The notes under the pieces were generated by a model. That model was given only the letters and a program-made list of their open reading frames with translations. It made no database searches and had not been told where the DNA came from. A program made the position numbers and the translations under genes. A stretch of 64,000 bases of DNA, from the NCBI RefSeq assembly GCF_014202275.1, contig NZ_JACHGF010000003.1, positions 62,001 to 126,000 of the forward strand, written 5' to 3'. Below are positions 39,495 through 63,024 of the stretch, piece by piece. Origin of the DNA: Rhabdobacter roseus (lineage in GTDB: Bacteria > Bacteroidota > Bacteroidia > Cytophagales > Spirosomataceae). Position 1 is the stretch's first letter, and each line of letters begins with the position of its first letter.

Positions 39495-41897
39495 ATGCAA
39501 AAAATCACCCTCTTCGCTCTTTTTTTCTTAGGTACTTTTCGCCTGCTGGCGCAGCAGGTACCCGTCCACCTCAAACTCACCGAGCCTTCCAAGTTACCCG
39601 TCATTGCCGCTACCGTTCAGGTGATGCAGGTACCCGACACCACCGTGGTGCAGTACGGCCTCACCGACACCCTGGGTACCCTCACGCTTTCGCTGACGGC
39701 GGGCAAGCCGTACCGGCTGGTGGCGAGCTCCGTAGGGTACCGCACGCTCCGGCAAACCTTCACCGTCACGACCGCCAAAAGTACCTTTACCTTTATCCTA
39801 AACGAAGAAAACCAGCAGCTACAGGAAGTGCGGGTCACGGCGGCGCGGCCCCTGCTGCGGCAGGAAGACGACAAGATGATCCTGGACCCGGAGCCACTCG
39901 TGAGTACCAGTACCAGCACGCTGGAGCTCCTGGAAAAAACGCCGGGCCTCTTCGTGGACCCCGACGGCAACGTGTACCTGAGCAGCACCACCCCGGCCAC
40001 CATTTACATCAACGGCCGCGAGCAGCGCATGAGTACCGCCGACATTGCCTCCATGCTGAAAAGCCTGCCGCCCAACAGCATCTCACACATAGAAATTCTG
40101 CGGACGCCCTCGGCCAAGTACGACGCCAGTGGCAGCGGCGGCGTGGTGAACGTAGTCCTTAAGAAGGGCGTAAAAATAGGCCTGACGGGCTCGGTCAACG
40201 CCGCCCTGCACCAGGGCCGCTACGGCAACCAGATGCTGGGCGTCAACCTCACCAACCACGAGGGCCGCCGCCACTCCTACCTCAACCTCAACTACACCCA
40301 CCGCAACAGCTACGAAAAAGTAGAAACCCAGCGCCTGCTGCCCAACGGCAACCGCATTGCGCAGCAAGCCTTTACCACTTTCCCGTCCGACGTCGCCTAC
40401 GCGGGTTTTGGGTTTGGGTACGAATTTTCGCCCAAGTGGGAGGTCAACTACGACAGCCGGATCAACTACAACCTCAACAACTCGGCCTCGGTGAACGAGA
40501 GTGTCATCCGCGCGGCCAGCGGAGGTACCTTGCTGAGCGACAACACCAACTACCTCCAGAACCGCTCCAACGTGTTTTCGATGAGCCAGGGCGTAACCAC
40601 CAAGTACAAGATCAACGAAGCGGGCTCGGAGCTCACCACCGATTTTTCGTACGGGTACTTTGAAAACAAAGGTACCCAGGCTTACCAGACGCTTTTTGAA
40701 CTCCCCCAGGTTTCGGAGCTGGCGGGCAACGGGCACTGGACCAACCGCCGCCACGTCTGGGCCGGACAGGTAGATCTGCGCTACAAACTACCGAAGCAAA
40801 TTACGCTCGAAACGGGGCTCAAAAGTACCTTTCAGGGTTTTCAGAGCGGCACTAACTACTTCGTGCAGCAGGGCGACCAGCTGGAAGTGGACGATTTCCG
40901 CACCAACACCTTTACCTACCGCGACAACATCAACGCGGCCTACGTGCAGGGCTCCAAAACCTTCGGGGCCTTCATCCTGAAAGTAGGTACCCGGCTCGAA
41001 AACACCATCATGCACGGGCGGCAGCGCATTCCGGCGGATACCTCCTTCCGCATCAACCGCACCGACCTCTTCCCCTACCTCTTCCTGAGCCGGAGCATTG
41101 GCAAAATAGCGGGTTGGGAGATGCGTAGCTACCTCGTGGCGCGGCGCTCCATCACGCGCCCGGCCTACGAGTACCTCAATCCGTTCGCGCGCTTCGTGGA
41201 TCAGTACCTCTACGAAACGGGCAACCCGGCACTGCGGCCCCAGTTCACGCAAAATTTCGAAGTAAACATCAGCGTGGAAGAACGGCCCATTTTTGCCGTC
41301 GGTCGTAACTATACGCAGGATATTTTCACCAACGTACTCTACCAGGACCCGCAAAATCCCGCCCTAGCCTACCGCTCCTACGACAACCTGGGGCGGAACT
41401 CGGAGACCTACTTCCGGCTGCTGGGGGCCATTCCGCCCGGCCGAAAGTACTTCTTTGTGGTGGGCATGCAGTACAACTACAACGACTACCGGGGCGTCTA
41501 CGAAGAGCGGCCGCTGGAGTTTCAGCGGGGTAGTATGTCGTTCTTCACCTTTCACCAGCTCAAAATCGACCCGCTCACCACGCTCAGCCTCAACGGGTTT
41601 TACCGCATGAAGGGGCAGCTGCAATTCTACGAGCTCAGCAATTTTGGCAACCTCAACCTGAACCTCAACCGCCAGCTCCTGAATAAAAAACTCCTGGCGA
41701 GCCTAAGCGTCACCGATTTGTTTTTTACCAATAAGTATGAGTTCACGCTCAACCAGGGGTCGGTTTCGGCCAGCGGGGCGCGCATCAACGACACCCGCCG
41801 GGTGGGGCTCAGCCTGCGGTACAATTTCGGCATTCGTAAAAAAGAAGAACGCTCGGGCATGCCCGACTTCGACTCGCTGGAACGCAACAGCCGGTAG
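39495..41897 (+). CDS. outer membrane beta-barrel protein, TonB-receptor-like (OMP_b-brl_3)
   Basis: An 800-residue outer-membrane protein. Signal peptide 1-19; a carboxypeptidase-regulatory-like domain about 22-105 (LKLTEPSKLPVIAATVQVMQVPDTTVVQYGLTDTLGTLTLSLTAGKPYRLVAS); a plug domain about 115-225 (PLVSTSTSTLELLEKTPGLFVDPDGNVYL, then RTPSAKYDASGSGGVVNVVLKKG); and a barrel to the end (FGIRKKEER near the terminus). No SusD partner follows, so it is the SusD-independent type, and its ligand is unknown. A motif-pair hairpin follows directly. Confidence 0.88.
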   Translation: MQKITLFALFFLGTFRLLAQQVPVHLKLTEPSKLPVIAATVQVMQVPDTTVVQYGLTDTLGTLTLSLTAGKPYRLVASSVGYRTLRQTFTVTTAKSTFTFILNEENQQLQEVRVTAARPLLRQEDDKMILDPEPLVSTSTSTLELLEKTPGLFVDPDGNVYLSSTTPATIYINGREQRMSTADIASMLKSLPPNSISHIEILRTPSAKYDASGSGGVVNVVLKKGVKIGLTGSVNAALHQGRYGNQMLGVNLTNHEGRRHSYLNLNYTHRNSYEKVETQRLLPNGNRIAQQAFTTFPSDVAYAGFGFGYEFSPKWEVNYDSRINYNLNNSASVNESVIRAASGGTLLSDNTNYLQNRSNVFSMSQGVTTKYKINEAGSELTTDFSYGYFENKGTQAYQTLFELPQVSELAGNGHWTNRRHVWAGQVDLRYKLPKQITLETGLKSTFQGFQSGTNYFVQQGDQLEVDDFRTNTFTYRDNINAAYVQGSKTFGAFILKVGTRLENTIMHGRQRIPADTSFRINRTDLFPYLFLSRSIGKIAGWEMRSYLVARRSITRPAYEYLNPFARFVDQYLYETGNPALRPQFTQNFEVNISVEERPIFAVGRNYTQDIFTNVLYQDPQNPALAYRSYDNLGRNSETYFRLLGAIPPGRKYFFVVGMQYNYNDYRGVYEERPLEFQRGSMSFFTFHQLKIDPLTTLSLNGFYRMKGQLQFYELSNFGNLNLNLNRQLLNKKLLASLSVTDLFFTNKYEFTLNQGSVSASGARINDTRRVGLSLRYNFGIRKKEERSGMPDFDSLERNSR

Positions 41898-41899
41898 GG

Positions 41900-41918
41900 G
41901 TACTTTATGTGAAAGTAC
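41900..41918 (+). other. motif-pair hairpin after the TonB-receptor-like gene
   Basis: GTACTTT (41900-41906), a 5-base loop ATGTG, and AAAGTAC (41912-41918) lie directly after the stop codon at 41897. Same build as those at 1030, 37170 and 48524. Confidence 0.6.
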
Positions 41919-41955
41919 GATCTAATTACCAAACCCCGTTCGTGGCTGGCTATTC

Positions 41956-42282
41956 TCATTTCTTGTTATTTGTCCGCAGCGCATCCCGTATTTTTATTTC
42001 TTTGTATTTTCGAACTATTTCCTTTGCTTCTTTAAAGGTTTCGTCGTAACTAATAGAGACGTCTCCTCCTATTTTTGTGGAATAGTCAAATCCATTTTCA
42101 ACAAAAAATTTTACTACTTCCCATTTTTTGTCATCCGATTTTTGAGGTGGTTTAAATTTCTCGGACAAAAATGCCATAGCTTTTCCGCAATGAGGACAAA
42201 CTTTATCGTACTTGAATTTCGTAAAATCTGTTCCTTGGCTAAATGCTATTTTACAATCTAGGCAAACTGATTTATATCCCAT
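41956..42282 (-). CDS. cassette gene: small zinc-ribbon protein
   Basis: A 108-residue protein. A zinc ribbon is visible near the N-terminus: Cys8 and Cys11 in SVCLDC and a CPHCGK knuckle about 18 residues later. Then comes SEKFKPPQKSDDKKWEVVKFFVENGFDYS, a helical segment and a basic tail. Function is unknown; the form recurs in Bacteroidota small accessory proteins. It starts 60 bases after the R' box GTTAGCGG of the attC at 42343. No attC can be seen between its stop and the TonB-receptor-like gene, so this cassette is the broken distal end of the array. Confidence 0.75.
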   Translation of the reverse strand: MGYKSVCLDCKIAFSQGTDFTKFKYDKVCPHCGKAMAFLSEKFKPPQKSDDKKWEVVKFFVENGFDYSTKIGGDVSISYDETFKEAKEIVRKYKEIKIRDALRTNNKK

Positions 42283-42342
42283 TTTATCAATTATTCAAAA
42301 TTAAATCATTACTATGCTCGTTTTTAGCTCTCGCTCGCTTGC

Positions 42343-42473
42343 CGCTAACGATTGAGTTATCACCTATGGCCTGTTTAAAGCTAGTTCGCTATTCGCCCGA
42401 GATAAAGGTAGTGAAAAGCAGAAAAGTATTCGTCGCCTAGACAACGGCCTTAGATTATAGCATAGTGTTGTAG
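42343..42473 (-). other. attC-like site a
   Basis: On the minus strand: R'' CTACAAC (42467-42473), L'' ACTATGCTATAATCTAAGGCC, a loop of about 70 bases, L' GGCCATAGGTGATAACTCAAT, R' GTTAGCG (42343-42349). About 12 of 17 outer stem positions pair. R'' CTACAAC complements GTTGTAG, the first bases of the cassette that carries it. Confidence 0.65.
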
Positions 42474-42487
42474 GTAGTTGTTTTTAT

Positions 42488-42988
42488 TTAATCAATGAAT
42501 TCAATTCTTCCATTTATCAATGTCATTGTTAGGCCATGTTCATTTTCCCAAGGCACTTTAAATATAAGCTGGAATATAATATCCTCTTTGTTTGAAACGT
42601 CAGAAAAGAAAACATAATCCAATTCTGCTTTTTTAAATGAATCATTTGAGTCTAAACATTGAAAGTATTCCCTATTTGCCAATTCAGTATTGCCGCCATA
42701 ATTATCAACTAAAACTTGAGGAACAAAACCATAATCAATATTAGAAACGCATACATTGAAGTGGTCCCAAATTTCAGTTTTTATTTTTTCTTCTATTGAA
42801 ATATCTAGCTTTAAGAATCCATTTAATCGTTTAACTTCTAATTCTGTAATATCATTTTCTTTATCATCCTTTTCAGAATAAATCCAAATTTTAACAATTC
42901 GGCTAAAGAGTTTAGAATATAGGCTAGTTTGATACACTCCAAATTCTTCCACATGCTCTAAATTTTCTAAGAATTCATCTCGTGTCAT
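42488..42988 (-). CDS. cassette gene: hypothetical acidic protein
   Basis: A 166-residue soluble acidic protein (MTRDEFLENLEHVEEFGVYQ). It has an alternating beta section VKIWIYSEKDDKENDITELEVKRLNGFLKLD and a late conserved-looking turn FKVPWENEHGLTMTLINGRIEF. Similar layouts (a W-x-x-EHG turn before a final strand) occur in small Bacteroidota and Firmicutes proteins related to immunity-type families; I cannot name one with confidence. It is very AT-rich. Its stop lies 15 bases before attC site a, and its start is 38 bases after R' GTTGTAG of site b. Confidence 0.7.
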   Translation of the reverse strand: MTRDEFLENLEHVEEFGVYQTSLYSKLFSRIVKIWIYSEKDDKENDITELEVKRLNGFLKLDISIEEKIKTEIWDHFNVCVSNIDYGFVPQVLVDNYGGNTELANREYFQCLDSNDSFKKAELDYVFFSDVSNKEDIIFQLIFKVPWENEHGLTMTLINGRIEFID

Positions 42989-43025
42989 ATTTTAAATATT
43001 GATTTATACCTTCTTATCTAATTAT

Positions 43026-43157
43026 CTACAACGGCCGCGTATAAAAGCAGTGGCTGGGTTAACAGCGCTGCTGCTTCGGCCAAAACTTAAGATAATAAAA
43101 GGCGGTAAACTTTGCTACTCCAGAATACCAGCCATTGATTTTATATTGTGTTGGCAG
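43026..43157 (-). other. attC-like site b
   Basis: On the minus strand: R'' CTGCCAAC (43150-43157), L'' ACAATATAAAATCAATGGCTGG, a loop of about 70 bases, L' CCAGCCACTGCTTTTATA, R' GTTGTAG (43026-43032). CCAGCCA and TTTTATA blocks pair in register. R'' plus its flank, ACTGCCAAC, is the exact complement of GTTGGCAGT, the first bases of this cassette at 43504. Confidence 0.8.
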
Positions 43158-43245
43158 TAGTTAACCTTCAACCATTGTCTGTCGTGAGCTCGATTTATCC
43201 AGTTATTTTTTAGGTTGAATTAACCATTATCTAAATAAAAGCCCT

Positions 43246-43443
43246 TCATCTCATGTATTTGTAGGCAAGAAATGTCAGTATTGATATAATCAAAGCCGCT
43301 GCCAAAAAGTTTGTGTGTGTCCCTTGAGGAAGATTATGTCCTGAAGCAATTGCCATCATCCATATGAATAGGTCCGCCAGTATTAATAATGTAAAAATTA
43401 CCATTAGAATTCGCCTTACTAGGTTCATTTTACTGCCTGTCAT
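43246..43443 (-). CDS. cassette gene: two-span small membrane protein
   Basis: A 65-residue protein, MTGSKMNLVRRILMVIFTLLILADLFIW, with two hydrophobic helices (about 10-32 and 44-62) joined by ASGHNLPQGTHTN, and a short basic end YKYMR. An inner ATG at residue 6 is also possible. Small double-span proteins are common cassette cargo and often act as immunity or membrane-stress proteins, but nothing here shows which. It lies first after head site 1. Confidence 0.65.
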   Translation of the reverse strand: MTGSKMNLVRRILMVIFTLLILADLFIWMMAIASGHNLPQGTHTNFLAAALIISILTFLAYKYMR

Positions 43444-43496
43444 TGTCGACTATGTGTGTCATTATATAAATTTCTGTCCACCAGTCTGCCTAATTA

Positions 43497-43550
43497 CTGC
43501 CAACATTTGTATACACGAAACTAGTTTCGTGTATATCCGCTATAACCATA
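43497..43550 (-). other. palindromic head site 1 (attI-like candidate)
   Basis: Contains a perfect 26-bp palindrome at 43510-43535, each half reading TATACACGAAACT outward to a CTAG centre. On the minus strand it is preceded by ATAGCGGA and followed by ATGTTGGCAG, where GTTGGCAG is the first cassette's R' box. It lacks the R'' AAC box of an attC. A copy with the same order of elements is at 45058-45110. Confidence 0.65.
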
Positions 43551-43637
43551 GCCATTTAGAATCGTTTGGAACTACTACAACTACCTAAGGAATGGTTTTT
43601 TAGCGGCTATCGAGCAAAGAGGAGTCTCACTCGTTGG

Positions 43638-43750
43638 GCGTAGTCTCCGACTACGTCCTGGTGTCACGCGGTCTCCGACTGAAGGACGGGATGGCGTAGA
43701 CTGCCCTCGGTCTGAGACCGACGACGCACAAACGTAGTCGGAGACTACGC
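43638..43750. repeat. 113-bp element with 18-bp terminal inverted repeats
   Basis: GCGTAGTCTCCGACTACG (43638-43655) and its exact complement (43733-43750) bound a 113-bp segment. Each end is itself a small hairpin (CGTAGTC/GACTACG). Internal partial copies (GCGGTCTCCGACT, CGGTCTGAGACCG) suggest a REP or MITE-like element. It fills the gene-less cassette 3. No target duplication is evident. Confidence 0.7.
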
Positions 43751-43822
43751 TTAGCAGTGAGTTTTAAATTGATTTTTGTCTCCAGTTATTCTCCATGCAC
43801 TAAACTATTCTGAGTGAATTGC

Positions 43823-43915
43823 GACTAACGTTTTAGGCTTGGCAAAGGGCGGGATTTTAGCACAAATTTTCTACGAAGCATGTCTGCCCGCCTTTTGCCA
43901 AGCTGCTGTTAGCGG
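43823..43915 (-). other. attC-like site c
   Basis: On the minus strand: R'' CCGCTAAC (43908-43915), L'' with CTTGGCAAAAGGCGGG (43887-43902), a 33-base loop, L' with CCCGCCCTTTGCCAAG (43838-43853; 15 of 16 pairs), R' GTTAGTC (43823-43829). R'' complements GTTAGCGG, the first bases of its cassette at 44485. The strongest hairpin of the four. Confidence 0.85.
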
Positions 43916-43924
43916 TTCGTACCT

Positions 43925-44455
43925 TTAAACTAAAATTTCTGTTTCAAAAAAATCCATTTCAGTTATTTTATATTTTGTTTTAGCATATTCAATAATTTCT
44001 TCCTTTATTTTCTGATAGTCTTGAACCCGCTTTTTGATAATATCCGTTCGGTCATATATTTTACTATGTTTCTTTTTCGCTAGCTCTGATAATTCAGTCA
44101 AGTCATTTACTTTAAGGTAAATAACTTCAGACAAGTTATATTTTTTTATTTCAATACATTTTTCAAATTCTATAAATTGATCTAATTCACCAAAAAAAGC
44201 TGTAAAAATATTGATTCTTTGCTCTTTAATTAATGCAGTCCAAAACGGGCACCAATATTCTTTTGGGATTATTTTGCCATCATTAATAAAGCTATTTATC
44301 TTCAAAGCAATTTCACTTTCACTCTTCAAAAAATCATTTCTTATTTTATTTCCCGAAACAATATTTATTTCCTTATCTGACACAAGCAATTGTTCAATTG
44401 GCGGAAACACAATTTCGGAAATGTTAAAACGGAAAATTATTTTGATTTCTGTCAT
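43925..44455 (-). CDS. cassette gene: adenylate-kinase-like protein without P-loop
   Basis: A 176-residue protein. From residue 28 the order of segments follows nucleoside monophosphate kinases: KEINIVSGNKIRNDF aligns with the STGDxLR segment, ALKINSFINDGKIIPKEYW with the GxxxxxYxxxGxLVPDE helix, INIFTAFFGELDQFIEFEKCI with the GFPRTxxQA region, VIYLKV with the following strand, and RTDIIKKRVQDYQKIKEEIIEYAK with the last helix (RxDD-KRLxxY). The P-loop GxPGxGKGT is absent and the FPR motif is replaced by FFG, so catalysis is unlikely. The comparison is by eye. It is AT-rich, and attC site c follows its stop by 10 bases. Confidence 0.6.
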   Translation of the reverse strand: MTEIKIIFRFNISEIVFPPIEQLLVSDKEINIVSGNKIRNDFLKSESEIALKINSFINDGKIIPKEYWCPFWTALIKEQRINIFTAFFGELDQFIEFEKCIEIKKYNLSEVIYLKVNDLTELSELAKKKHSKIYDRTDIIKKRVQDYQKIKEEIIEYAKTKYKITEMDFFETEILV

Positions 44456-44477
44456 TTATATTATCGATTTTGTATGA

Positions 44478-44548
44478 CCGCTAACGGTTAGTATAAGCGG
44501 CGACGAAGGCCGTCGGCCGAGATGCCGCTTATACAGTGTTGTATGGCG
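44478..44548 (-). other. attC-like site d
   Basis: On the minus strand: R'' GCCATACAAC (44538-44547), stem GTATAAGCGGC (perfect 11 bp, 44491-44501 with 44524-44534), a 22-base loop that is itself GC-rich, and R' GTTAGCGG (44478-44485). R'' is the exact complement of GTTGTATGGC, the first ten bases of its cassette at 45058-45067. Confidence 0.85.
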
Positions 44549-44682
44549 TTGTTCTTTACAGGTTGCCACGCGCATTTCTTTTTCTGTTTTTAGCCTGATT
44601 TCAGAAAAGTAGCCCGAAAATGCAATCAAGTCCGTCCGACGCTTTGAATGCATTTTGCGCCAATTCCTGCTCAAACGCAACG

Positions 44683-45036
44683 TCAATTCTTCTTCATCAA
44701 CTTCTGCTCCGACTTCTGGTCGAGGTCTGGTAACTTTGTTTTTAGCGTATAACTTTTAACTATTGCAAATATTAGAAGTACTACGAAGTGAAAAAGGACA
44801 ATAAAATAAAAATACAATTCCCAAACTAAAGCGCCTCCATATTCGGAATGATAAATTCTGCCGTTGATGAAATAGATGGAATAAAGTAAAAGTATTATAG
44901 CATTAATAATATAAAACACTTTCTTTTTTTTCCATTCCACCAGAAAGTGATTTAAGAAAAACCCGCTAATCAAAGTAAAAAAAGCTATAAAGAGAGTGTT
45001 GCTAAATATTAATTCTATTATTTCTTTAGCTGTCAT
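44683..45036 (-). CDS. cassette gene: three-span membrane protein
   Basis: A 117-residue membrane protein with hydrophobic helices at about 10-32 (IFSNTLFIAFFTLISGFFLNHFL), 40-58 (VFYIINAIILLLYSIYFI) and 72-96 (ELYFYFIVLFHFVVLLIFAIV), then a charged tail LPDLDQKSEQKLMKKN. The VEWKKKK loop between spans 1 and 2 is basic and probably cytoplasmic. No family is recognised. It is the first cassette after head site 2, starting 22 bases past R' GTTGTATGG. About 130 bases of non-coding sequence precede attC site d. Confidence 0.7.
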   Translation of the reverse strand: MTAKEIIELIFSNTLFIAFFTLISGFFLNHFLVEWKKKKVFYIINAIILLLYSIYFINGRIYHSEYGGALVWELYFYFIVLFHFVVLLIFAIVKSYTLKTKLPDLDQKSEQKLMKKN

Positions 45037-45057
45037 TTATTTATTTTTTCTATCAAT

Positions 45058-45110
45058 GCCATACAACATCTGTATATACGAACCTAGGATCGTGTATATC
45101 CGCTACAATC
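45058..45110 (-). other. palindromic head site 2 (attI-like candidate)
   Basis: Near-palindrome at 45073-45098 (11 of 13 pairs, centre CCTAGG), preceded on the minus strand by TGTAGCGGA and followed by CAGATGTTGTATGGC. Shared with head site 1: TAGCGGATATACACGA, the CTAG centre, TATACA and ATGTTG in the same spacing. It marks the upstream end of the whole cassette array. Confidence 0.65.
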
Positions 45111-45337
45111 ATTTACAAACGATCACAACCACCCTTAACCCCTTTGTAACTAGTAGCCGACAACTAAAAGTACCTACGGCTGCGTATCAAATATATCCTT
45201 TGTCCTAGTAAAAGCGTAAATCCCTGGCATTTTCCTTTTCATTTCTAAAAGAAAATTTTATCCTGCGGCTCCTGTGCGCGTGGTCGTGTTGAATAGGGTA
45301 CCCTGATGGATCGTTGAATACACGGCCGCGTTTCTTA

Positions 45338-45518
45338 TTTACCCATCAAAAAGCCTGCCGAATCAGGGCCGTAGGCCCGCGATGTTTATAGCTAAGAGCC
45401 CACCCAAATCCGCCCACGTGCCGTTAGGTACGTAACGAGCGGTGGGGTTGCGTACCTACGGCACACCGACTCCCTCCCTAAGATCTTTTCTATACACCTT
45501 AGACCGCTACGCGGCCAC
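45338..45518 (-). repeat. ~185-bp structured repeat, copy B
   Basis: Inverted copy of the element at 36794-36980. In the minus direction: GTGGCCGCGTAGCGGT, the imperfect inverted repeat (45418-45436 with 45447-45464), TAGCTATAAACATCGCG, CCTACGGC and GATGGGTAAAT, in the same order and spacing. The two copies differ by many substitutions, so they are old or belong to different subfamilies. No gene lies between head site 2 and 45606. Confidence 0.75.
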
Positions 45519-61653: not shown

Positions 61654-63024
61654 TTAGTAAAATACCTCCGTGGCGTGGGCCTTTATTTGGTTGAAAAGTA
61701 CCCCATACTGCTGCTCGGCGTTCTCCTTTAAAAAAGGATTGCCGCGCAGGTAGAGCTTTTCCAGCTGAGTAATTCGGAGCAAGGGCTGCGGAAATTCCTG
61801 AAAATTATTGCCCGACAAATCCAGTTCCTTCAAACCCCGCAACGCAGTGATTTCGGGCGGAAAATTCGTAAACCAATTGTAGCCAATATCCAGCAGCGTG
61901 AGCTGGTTCAGGCCCGCCAGGCGGCTCGGCAGGGTACTTAGGCGGTTGTGGTGCACGTAGATGGTGTGCAGCCGCTGCAGGCGATCGATCCGGGGCGGTA
62001 GCTCGGTGAGCTGGTTGTTGGCCACGGCCAAATGCGTCAACCGCCGCAGCCGCGTGACCGCCGCGGGTAGCTCCGTGAACTCGTTGTAGTACAGATCAAG
62101 TACCTCCAGGCGGCGCAGCTTCCTGACGCCCGGGGGCAGGGTACTTAGTTTGGTCTGGTACAGGTTGAGGTCTTCTAGCTTTTTTAATTTCCTGAAACTA
62201 CGGCTCGACAACCCGGTGAGCGCATTGCGGCCCAGCCACAGGCTCGTCAGCCCCTTACAGGCCCGGGCCGCTTGGGGCACATCGACCAGGCCGTTGGCCT
62301 GCACGTTCAGGATGCGGAGCGAGCTATTTTTGGTCAATGCTAAAGTACCTTTCCCGAGTTGGTTGCCGCGCAGGTCCAGCTGCCGGAGCCGGGGCAGGCG
62401 CGCCAGGTCCAGCCGGAGGTCGGTGAGCTCGTTGCCGTGCAGGTCCAGCTCTTCGAGGTTGGGGAAACGGTATACGAGCTCGTAAGGTACCTGGCTGAGC
62501 TCCAGCTGATTCAGCAGCAGTCGCTTGACGCGCAGCGTGTCCTGGTACGTACGGGCGTCGTTCAGCGTCACGAGGGTACTATCGCCGGTGCGTAGCTGAC
62601 GGGGCTCGGGTACTTTCCCTATCCCAAAACCCTCCATCGCCTGGAAAGCCTGTTTGGCGGGGTTATTAATCCGCCAGGTGGCCAACCGACCGGGAAGTGA
62701 ATCCAGGATCATCTTCGTGACGGAATCCTTCATCGCGGCGGGAGAATTTACGTTAAAAAAGACGTAGTCGGGCTTGCCCTCCGCACTGATAAGTACCTGT
62801 AGAAAAATGGAAAATCCCGGCTTCGGATTAGTGGGTAAGAAGGCTTTGAGCTTATCCGAAATAAGATTTGGCGTGAGGCCCTCGGGTACCTGCGCGTGGG
62901 GGTACTTTTCTTTTATTTTTTCGAGTAATCCCGTTTTTTGGGCTTCGTCCGTAGTCAAAACCTGAGGCTGGGCCCAGGCCACCCCCACGTATAAGATCAG
63001 CCCCAGGGTCAGTAGCTTTTTCAT
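61654..63024 (-). CDS. secreted leucine-rich-repeat protein 2, with TonB-C-like front domain
   Basis: A 456-residue paralogue of the downstream gene: signal peptide MKKLLTLGLILYVGVAWAQ, front domain FSIFLQVLISAEGKPDYVFFNVNSPAAMKDSVTKMILDSLPGRLATWRINNPAKQ, then about ten LRRs (LEVLDLYYNEFTELPAAVTRLRRLTHLAVANNQLTELP), and the common end LKENAEQQYGVLFNQIKAHATEVFY. The paired genes form one transcript on the minus strand; this one is upstream. The closing block with Ala-Thr-Glu-Val-aromatic-Tyr is identical in plan and may matter for export or anchoring. Confidence 0.8.
   Translation of the reverse strand: MKKLLTLGLILYVGVAWAQPQVLTTDEAQKTGLLEKIKEKYPHAQVPEGLTPNLISDKLKAFLPTNPKPGFSIFLQVLISAEGKPDYVFFNVNSPAAMKDSVTKMILDSLPGRLATWRINNPAKQAFQAMEGFGIGKVPEPRQLRTGDSTLVTLNDARTYQDTLRVKRLLLNQLELSQVPYELVYRFPNLEELDLHGNELTDLRLDLARLPRLRQLDLRGNQLGKGTLALTKNSSLRILNVQANGLVDVPQAARACKGLTSLWLGRNALTGLSSRSFRKLKKLEDLNLYQTKLSTLPPGVRKLRRLEVLDLYYNEFTELPAAVTRLRRLTHLAVANNQLTELPPRIDRLQRLHTIYVHHNRLSTLPSRLAGLNQLTLLDIGYNWFTNFPPEITALRGLKELDLSGNNFQEFPQPLLRITQLEKLYLRGNPFLKENAEQQYGVLFNQIKAHATEVFY

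Follow-up and report, generated by a model that had tools for sequence, protein, structure and literature searches.

Arrays of gene cassettes usually begin at an insertion site beside an integrase gene, so what stands at the head of an array that has no such gene nearby? The question arose from a window of 64,000 nucleotides (nt) of Rhabdobacter roseus (Bacteroidota; Spirosomataceae), positions 62,001 to 126,000 of contig NZ_JACHGF010000003.1 (C3 of the 6.9-Mb draft genome, here G000), in which two copies of a palindromic element each preceded a run of cassettes separated by attC-like sites. No integrase of the family described below from contigs C18 and C24 was found on their part of C3. The initial annotation, made from the sequence alone, had proposed an attI, a core site for another tyrosine recombinase, or a duplicated array head bearing a promoter. 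Comparison within the genome and with other Bacteroidota made it probable that the elements are attI-type insertion sites of a Bacteroidota integron-like cassette system, detached from the integrase gene.

Anatomy of the two heads

Both elements ended exactly at the GTT with which a cassette began, as the initial annotation had seen. Head 1 (43502..43542, minus strand) consisted of a palindrome at 43510-43535, a spacer and the GTT at 43502-43504 that started the first cassette; head 2 (45065..45105, minus strand) had its palindrome at 45073-45098 and its GTT at 45065-45067. The same ordered elements did occur twice on the minus strand, namely TAGCGGA, a palindrome centred on CTAG, TATACARAT and GTTG. 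The 16-mer TAGCGGATATACACGA was present at two places in the window with no mismatch (43527-43542 and 45090-45105, minus strand), by itself only mildly unlikely since 0.24 matches were expected at up to three mismatches and 4 of 100 shuffles held two or more. The full repeat, with 86% identity over 49 nt (43501-43549 and 45064-45112), was stronger. Copy 1 was indeed a perfect 26-bp palindrome, and copy 2 was symmetrical at 22 of 26 positions. The AAC-type R'' box, whose absence had set the elements apart from ordinary attC sites, was also not seen by eye in either head, both having a palindrome and a leader instead. Each copy headed a run of cassettes: our script closed two after each of them, the second one of copy 1 having an uncertain end.

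Head 2 followed a conserved leader (45106..45338, minus strand) that had homology up to 271 nt upstream of the GTT and contained TATATTTG. At head 1 a remnant of the leader was kept (43543..43584, minus strand), with homology to about 80 nt upstream of the GTT, followed by unrelated DNA with an inverted repeat resembling repetitive extragenic palindromes (REP-like; 43638-43656 and 43732-43750). The REP-like sequence GTAGTCGGAGACTACG lay beside the truncated head 1 and also at the cut-off point of the C24 integrase (L024), and may mark a rearrangement hotspot.

A family of heads in the host genome

Across the whole genome, a palindrome-only pattern (up to three mismatches, GTT not required) matched eight places and its reversed control none; a looser scan of fetched loci added a ninth, diverged palindrome. 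All nine were followed by CA, three bases and GTT (seven) or ATT (two). The initial annotation had asked whether copies abut the first cassette, and had held that palindromes lying mainly away from cassettes would speak against its reading. Palindromes found without the GTT in the pattern abutted GTT or ATT in 9/9 cases in this genome and 1/1 in G003; the other genome searches required GTT in their pattern and are therefore no test of abutment. Further heads were located at C8:3000 and, by leader search, at C23:4.7 kb, C3:923 kb, C9:65 kb and C8:181 kb, and a leader fragment at C8:118101 showed no head. There were 14 heads in the genome with no integrase of the C18/C24 family beside them, one (C8:181 kb) without a palindrome; the head at C23:4.7 kb was of the non-palindromic C24 type. 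Two further attI-type sites, on C24 and C18, adjoined integrase sequence.

Fifteen sites were compared, C8:181 kb being left out with its palindrome gone. Upstream of the GTT, 14 of the 15 shared 45-376 nt with another site, and C18 shared none; eight shared at least 228 nt, and the conserved element thus exceeded the pattern first described. A collinear match starting within 60 nt downstream of the GTT was found in none of the 105 site pairs. Homology between heads stops at the GTT, as expected of an attI at the cassette junction G/TT. At C8:181134 (L092) the palindrome was missing and the leader continued directly as a cassette start, ATTACAGGCAATT; this may be an attI deletion that arose naturally.

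Heads beside integrase genes

Beyond the host, the stop codon of an integrase gene was followed, at a distance of 5 to about 75 nt, by the palindrome or its arms in several Bacteroidota. The initial annotation had asked whether any copy adjoins an integrase, and this was the case 3' of integrases in G259, G268, G205, G197, G786 and G787, besides the C18 and C24 sites of the host. The order in G259 was integrase, stop codon, 5 nt, ATACGCAACTAGTTGCGTAT, GTT and cassette; a second copy there kept the last integrase nucleotides and headed a different cassette array without an integrase. G268 had the same layout behind an 86%-identical, shorter (213-amino-acid) integrase frame. In G205 and G197 the stop was followed after about 75 nt by the arms TATATACGC...GCGTATATACAGATGTT, which carried a single change in G197; the G197 integrase was a 370-amino-acid frame aligning only in its C-terminal part. 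The arms were likewise about 75 nt after the integrase stop in G786 and G787. Integrase and cassettes shared the same orientation. An integrase of the G259 type was found at E < 1e-100 in 5/9 other palindrome-bearing genomes searched (G259, G069, G205, G268 and G197).

Within the host, a 5'-truncated integrase on the 5.2-kb contig C24 (L024), sharing 60-62% identity with the G259 integrase along about 60 amino acids, ran into CGGATATACACGAAAC, ending near TATACAGATGTTA. This site had the left arm and the core in common with the window element; its middle differed and was not palindromic. C18 encoded a full-length integrase (an open reading frame, ORF, of 377 amino acids) with its own diverged site, CTTGCGTATATTTAGGA-GTTACAAGC; the six bases between CGTATAT and GTT were the same as in several heads, and its first cassette was perfectly closed. 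Integrase adjacency in six genomes, a host variant at an integrase fragment and homology ending at the GTT lend strong comparative support to the attI option of the initial annotation, within which its duplicated array head is included.

Flavobacteria were represented by L028 (Zobellia) and L031 (Ulvibacterium), where the heads were palindromic (AATAAACGTACCTAGGTACGTTTATACAATTGTT and a close variant) and the closing boxes matched in part; no relative of the C18 integrase was found within the fetched 8 kb.

Turnover of first cassettes at fixed heads in Runella

Runella genomes, of the same family as the host, carried 34-bp heads at two shared chromosomal loci. Duplicate loci were counted once (L027 and L040 are both G197, and L029 is G786, on the same contigs). 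At locus A, G205, G197 and G786 shared 1.2 kb upstream at 93-95% identity, through the head to the GTT, after which their first cassettes differed; with two further heads on two contigs of G030, the locus held five heads in four genomes. L027 (G197) and L029 (G786) rejoined exactly at a cassette start, CGTTAGYGATCAGG (CGTTAG), 2101 nt and 1750 nt after the head, respectively. Eight further genomes had the upstream gene of locus A with no palindrome within 420 nt, and in G788 the upstream gene was not found. Locus B had five heads (G205, G786, G197, G030 and G787). Their flanks were 86-94% identical to that of G205 as far as the head, all five first-cassette starts differed, and the palindromes were degenerate in G786 and G197. 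Here, G205 and G030 differed for 3455 and 2885 nt and then shared 5.2 kb at 92.5%. In seven genomes the 3' chromosomal flank of locus B followed the 5' flank after 41-121 nt, showing that the locus is empty there (G788 was unclear). Loci A and B thus presented ten heads with ten different first-cassette starts behind upstream flanks 86-95% identical, so that, as judged from the sequences, first cassettes have turned over at fixed heads without an integrase beside them. Whole-downstream BLAST comparison covered G205, G197 and G786 at locus A, L027 with L029, and G205 with G030 at locus B.

The cognate integrase was found at E < 1e-100 in 4/5 Runella genomes with heads at A or B vs 1/8 without (13 genomes, G788 counted as without heads; Fisher p 0.03). 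In G205, a single 6.81-Mb contig carried the integrase at 1.472 Mb and heads at 1.181, 1.557 and 6.678 Mb. As these three heads are at least 83 kb from the integrase, action in trans would be the simplest reading.

Pairing of cassette boxes

The start of a cassette, GTT-N7-ATT, was complementary to the closing AAC-N7-AAC of the same cassette, except at position 11, where a mismatch recurred. A perfect AAC-N7-AAC closing box matching the GTT-N7 of the head was present at 10/21 heads or attI sites vs 9/2100 shuffled controls (the 21 sites included L027 and L029 and left out L040). A chain parser followed at least nine consecutive closed cassettes behind the G205 integrase and four behind C24. 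It closed one each behind C18, C9, C8:109006, L027, the G205 head at locus A and the G030 head at locus B, and none behind C5, C14, L029 or the G205 head at locus B. An array of cassettes divided by attC hairpins and bounded by complementary start and end boxes, a trait of integrons, was therefore present. The classical R box has the consensus GTTRRRY / RYYYAAC, from which the present cassettes depart: starts such as GTTATGC and GTTGTAT keep GTT/AAC and not RRRY. The mismatch at position 11, between the ATT of the start box and the AAC of the closing box, was seen at many loci; it might play a part in strand choice, as do the extrahelical bases of attC sites.

The integrase and its wider family

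R227, K252, K255, H317, R320, H343 and Y352 were invariant in 20/20 aligned integrases, and these seven include the R, K, H, R, H and Y that are catalytic in tyrosine recombinases. The stretch from the K/R-box arginine to HxLRH measured 59-64 amino acids in 28/31 integrases (the motif was not found in three); counted on the alignment, the same stretch is 102 amino acids in IntI4 (2a3v). No IntI-specific insertion near patch III occurred in the 20-row alignment, and TIGR02249 scored C18 at 164.8 bits, the cut-off being 265. We call the system integron-like rather than an IntI integron because its integrases keep the catalytic residues and have no IntI-specific insertion. The proteins had a SAM-like domain, a catalytic domain and an N-terminal extension of about 90 amino acids, in which an ARWS-type motif was seen (L041 837-2201 and aligned integrases), with two copies in G259. 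A HARP-like N-terminal domain stayed below threshold (PF07443 at E 0.046 in 1/10 proteins; DUF5710 weak in 5/10) and is not claimed; such a domain on an enzyme proposed to act on hairpins would be of structural interest.

Relatives of the C18 integrase were present at E 1e-45 or better in 193/395 sampled genomes of the class, a count of integrases and not of proven integrons. Integrase 3' flanks were taken from 30 loci, 40 fetched loci and two earlier ones, giving 66 distinct flanks, 60 of them with at least 110 nt; these 60 include L121, from a different recombinase of 27% identity, and rows with an alignment ending before residue 340 were dropped except C24. The core [TA]ATA-N5-GTT[AG] occurred within 200 nt of the stop in 26/60 flanks vs 88/3000 shuffles, and a similar TATT-N5-GTT was seen by eye at C18, L055 and L056. 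Exact closing boxes were matched by 5/180 GTTs in a first set of flanks (control 43/18000), three at the strict core, and by 15/186 in a second (control 94/18600), twelve at the strict core; two loci were common to both sets. Among plasmids, 387 records had relatives at E 1e-30 or better, many from Sinorhizobium, Rhizobium and Acinetobacter, so the wider family is neither confined to Bacteroidota nor shown to be confined to cassette systems.

We considered and rejected a viral origin: no viral contig carried the pattern (with GTT), and the integrase query had no relative there. A pattern match in Blautia (L030), with a context unlike that of a head, was taken as chance and left out of later counts.

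Weighing the alternatives

Several observations weigh against the reading of the heads as detached attI sites. A perfect closing box was missing at 11/21 heads; these include sites matching at 6/7 positions, sites at early locus ends and sites where no candidate was convincing (C8:3000, C5, C23:1020, C8:115620 and G205 locus B). The only full-length integrase of its family in the host, that of C18, has an attI with no BLAST-level homology to the heads, and the integrase that does match them is the truncated fragment on the 5.2-kb contig, for which reason the host heads may now be silent. Four of the nine palindrome-bearing genomes searched had no G259-type integrase at E < 1e-100 (G003, G030, G044 and G254), and in Runella G791 has the integrase and no head at loci A or B, and G030 has heads with an integrase just 41% identical. 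The strict core was missing from 34/60 integrase 3' flanks, including every one of the 16 with an integrase 48-100% identical to C18 over its length (C18 itself among them). An inverted repeat beat all 20 shuffles in only 12/60 flanks, so the long palindrome is not universal. Upstream gene ends were copied in common to three C8 heads, and to the C14 and C23 heads, and part of the spread of heads is thus explained by duplication of neighbouring DNA.

These copied ends, the truncation of the host's cognate integrase, the severing of copy 1 from its leader and the degenerate palindromes at Runella locus B in G786 and G197 would all suit a system of relics, in which former attI sites were spread by ordinary duplication and homologous recombination and are now inactive in trans. 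That explanation is possible, and we regard it as doubtful: at loci A and B the cassette start differed in every head while the flank was conserved, which requires insertion or exchange after the head had arrived, and none of the 105 pairs of host sites had a collinear match starting within 60 nt downstream.

A slightly less probable alternative is that the palindrome is a regulatory element of cassette transcription, be it an operator, a 5' RNA hairpin or a promoter leader, and that the recombination site is the core only. The leader ahead of many host heads was conserved and contained TATATTTG and TACTTTTG, and copy 1 folded stably as single-stranded DNA (z score -5.5), both in keeping with such a role; against it, copy 2 folded poorly (z -1.2) and the Runella heads had no host-type leader, their palindromes directly following unrelated gene ends. 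TAnnTTTG-like motifs could be picked out in the leader by eye, with 15 nt between two TTTG motifs. The Bacteroidota promoter consensus has a longer gap, which also counts against a regulatory role. The leader may possibly bear a promoter all the same. Relic integrase coding in the leader was rejected, three-frame translations of three leaders having no integrase-like frame by eye. In 23 distinct copies of the palindrome from 12 genomes, covariation between the arms scored 0.198 vs a shuffled mean of 0.106 (0/500 shuffles reached it) and at most 0.058 when slid. Double-change pairs were no more frequent than in shuffles (323/500), a further point against the detached attI reading. The covariation score favours that reading as supporting evidence only, since relatedness inflates it and palindromic patterns had been used to find the copies. 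The covariation would fit two inverted protein-binding arms or a folded strand.

Although the two arms, inverted about a short CTAG, look like a simple core site, a core site of a phage, an integrative and conjugative element or a dif-like tyrosine recombinase cut at the palindrome centre, which the initial annotation had also entertained, is very improbable, because the right arm remains on the head as cassettes change, the Runella locus A alleles diverging from the GTT outside that arm and not at the centre; moreover, the element adjoins integrases with cassettes behind it and its pattern with GTT lay on no viral contig.

A proposed distributed integron

Comparison of the sequences leaves the attI-type heads of an integron-like system as a well-supported reading, and one integrase serving many such heads in trans, a distributed integron, as a likely one. 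We propose that a Xer-like tyrosine recombinase binds the inverted arms and adjacent core, and that it would join a circular cassette, via the folded attC hairpin, at the GTT of the head. As joining would take place at this GTT, new cassettes would appear directly at the head. The integrase would be encoded elsewhere in the genome and serve many heads in trans. Integrase binding, choice of strand, cleavage at the GTT, trans action and cassette expression from the leader are all steps that we infer from this arrangement. Whether Bacteroidota hold a widespread integron lineage with a Xer-like integrase, missed by IntI-based detectors and having distributed, trans-fed attI heads that would let cassettes be set at different chromosomal loci and that can be seeded between genes, is a broader proposition to which we would give even chances.

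Cassettes in the window

All cassettes behind the two heads lay on the minus strand. Cassette 1 of head 2 (44486..45067; GTTGTATGGCATT ... AACGCCATACAAC) held a 117-amino-acid ORF (44683-45036) with no Pfam match at E 0.01, and the attC-like site between it and cassette 2 (44473..44550) formed a hairpin with a z score of -3.5 as single-stranded DNA. Cassette 2 (43830..44485), with a 176-amino-acid ORF (43925-44455) matching the adenylate kinase family, was closed by a second attC-like hairpin (43817..43920; z -3.5). A third cassette start behind head 2 (43585..43829; GTTAGTCGCAATT) was cut short before head 1; it contained the REP-like inverted repeat (43638-43750), and no closing box was found in 43585..43829. 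Behind head 1, cassette 1 (43033..43504; GTTGGCAGTAATT ... AACTACTGCCAAC) had no ORF of at least 80 amino acids in the ORF list, and its closing attC-like site (43020..43162) had clear boxes and a hairpin no better than chance (z -0.9), so that two of the three attC-like sites beat all 200 shuffles in single-stranded folding. Cassette 2 of head 1 (42307..43032), with an uncertain 3' end, encoded a 166-amino-acid protein with DUF6985 (42488-42988). Possible further cassette material (41627..42306) held ORFs of 110 and 108 amino acids, and its closing site was not found. PADLOC matched 0/5 proteins of the window arrays at E 0.01. An Rfam microRNA match over an attC hairpin was below threshold (22.9 bits vs a gathering score of 82) and was taken as chance.

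Comparison with known systems

Integrons of Bacteroidota are listed in reviews, in the portions of their text available to us (PMC8618304, PMC9668308), and a survey of 2008 recorded, in the available portion, intI in the Bacteroidetes/Chlorobi group (PMC2426708). The IntegronFinder 2.0 survey of 2022, in the portion available, gave a single complete integron in Bacteroidetes proper, from Salinibacter ruber (PMC9024848). In the literature that we searched, neither heads of this type nor the lineage had been described; that search did not extend to preprints or to most subscription papers, and a prior description is possible. If the proposed mechanism is right, integron-like gene capture would be common in a phylum where complete integrons have scarcely been reported. 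It would proceed without the IntI insertion held, in the available text of one account, to be essential for integron function (PMC8138268), and would use numerous insertion sites in each genome, not a single one. The enzyme would also be a candidate for the unexplained homology-independent gene insertion in Bacteroidota outlined in the available part of a report on Riemerella anatipestifer (PMC13148043). The aph(3')-IVb unit of that report resembles the present system: it is a gene of Bacteroidota that carries an attC-like hairpin and was inserted, by a mechanism not identified there, with no homology in the flanks; that part of the description mentions no integrase or attI, unlike here.

Like the attI of class 1 and chromosomal integrons (PMC9668308, available part), the heads are array-head sites with G/TT joining that adjoin an integrase in several of the genomes compared. 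They differ in being mostly detached, multicopy and palindromic, with an integrase that has no IntI insertion. A stand-alone attI head far from any integrase is unlike the usual build of an integron. In the chromosomal integrons of Treponema, as far as described in the available part of that paper (PMC3607928), integrase and cassettes likewise share one orientation, but those integrons have IntI proteins and a single attI each. Cassettes of the Delta-attI type in mobile integrons (PMC12901181, available part) also supply extra recombining sites derived from attI; these lie inside unusual cassettes within mobile-integron arrays, whereas the heads described here are dispersed over the chromosome, each starting an array of its own. 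CALINs, clusters of attC sites without an integrase (PMC9024848, available part), are similar in that cassette arrays occur with no integrase nearby. Unlike CALINs, the present arrays keep an attI-type head, and in Runella the cassette next to that head varies.

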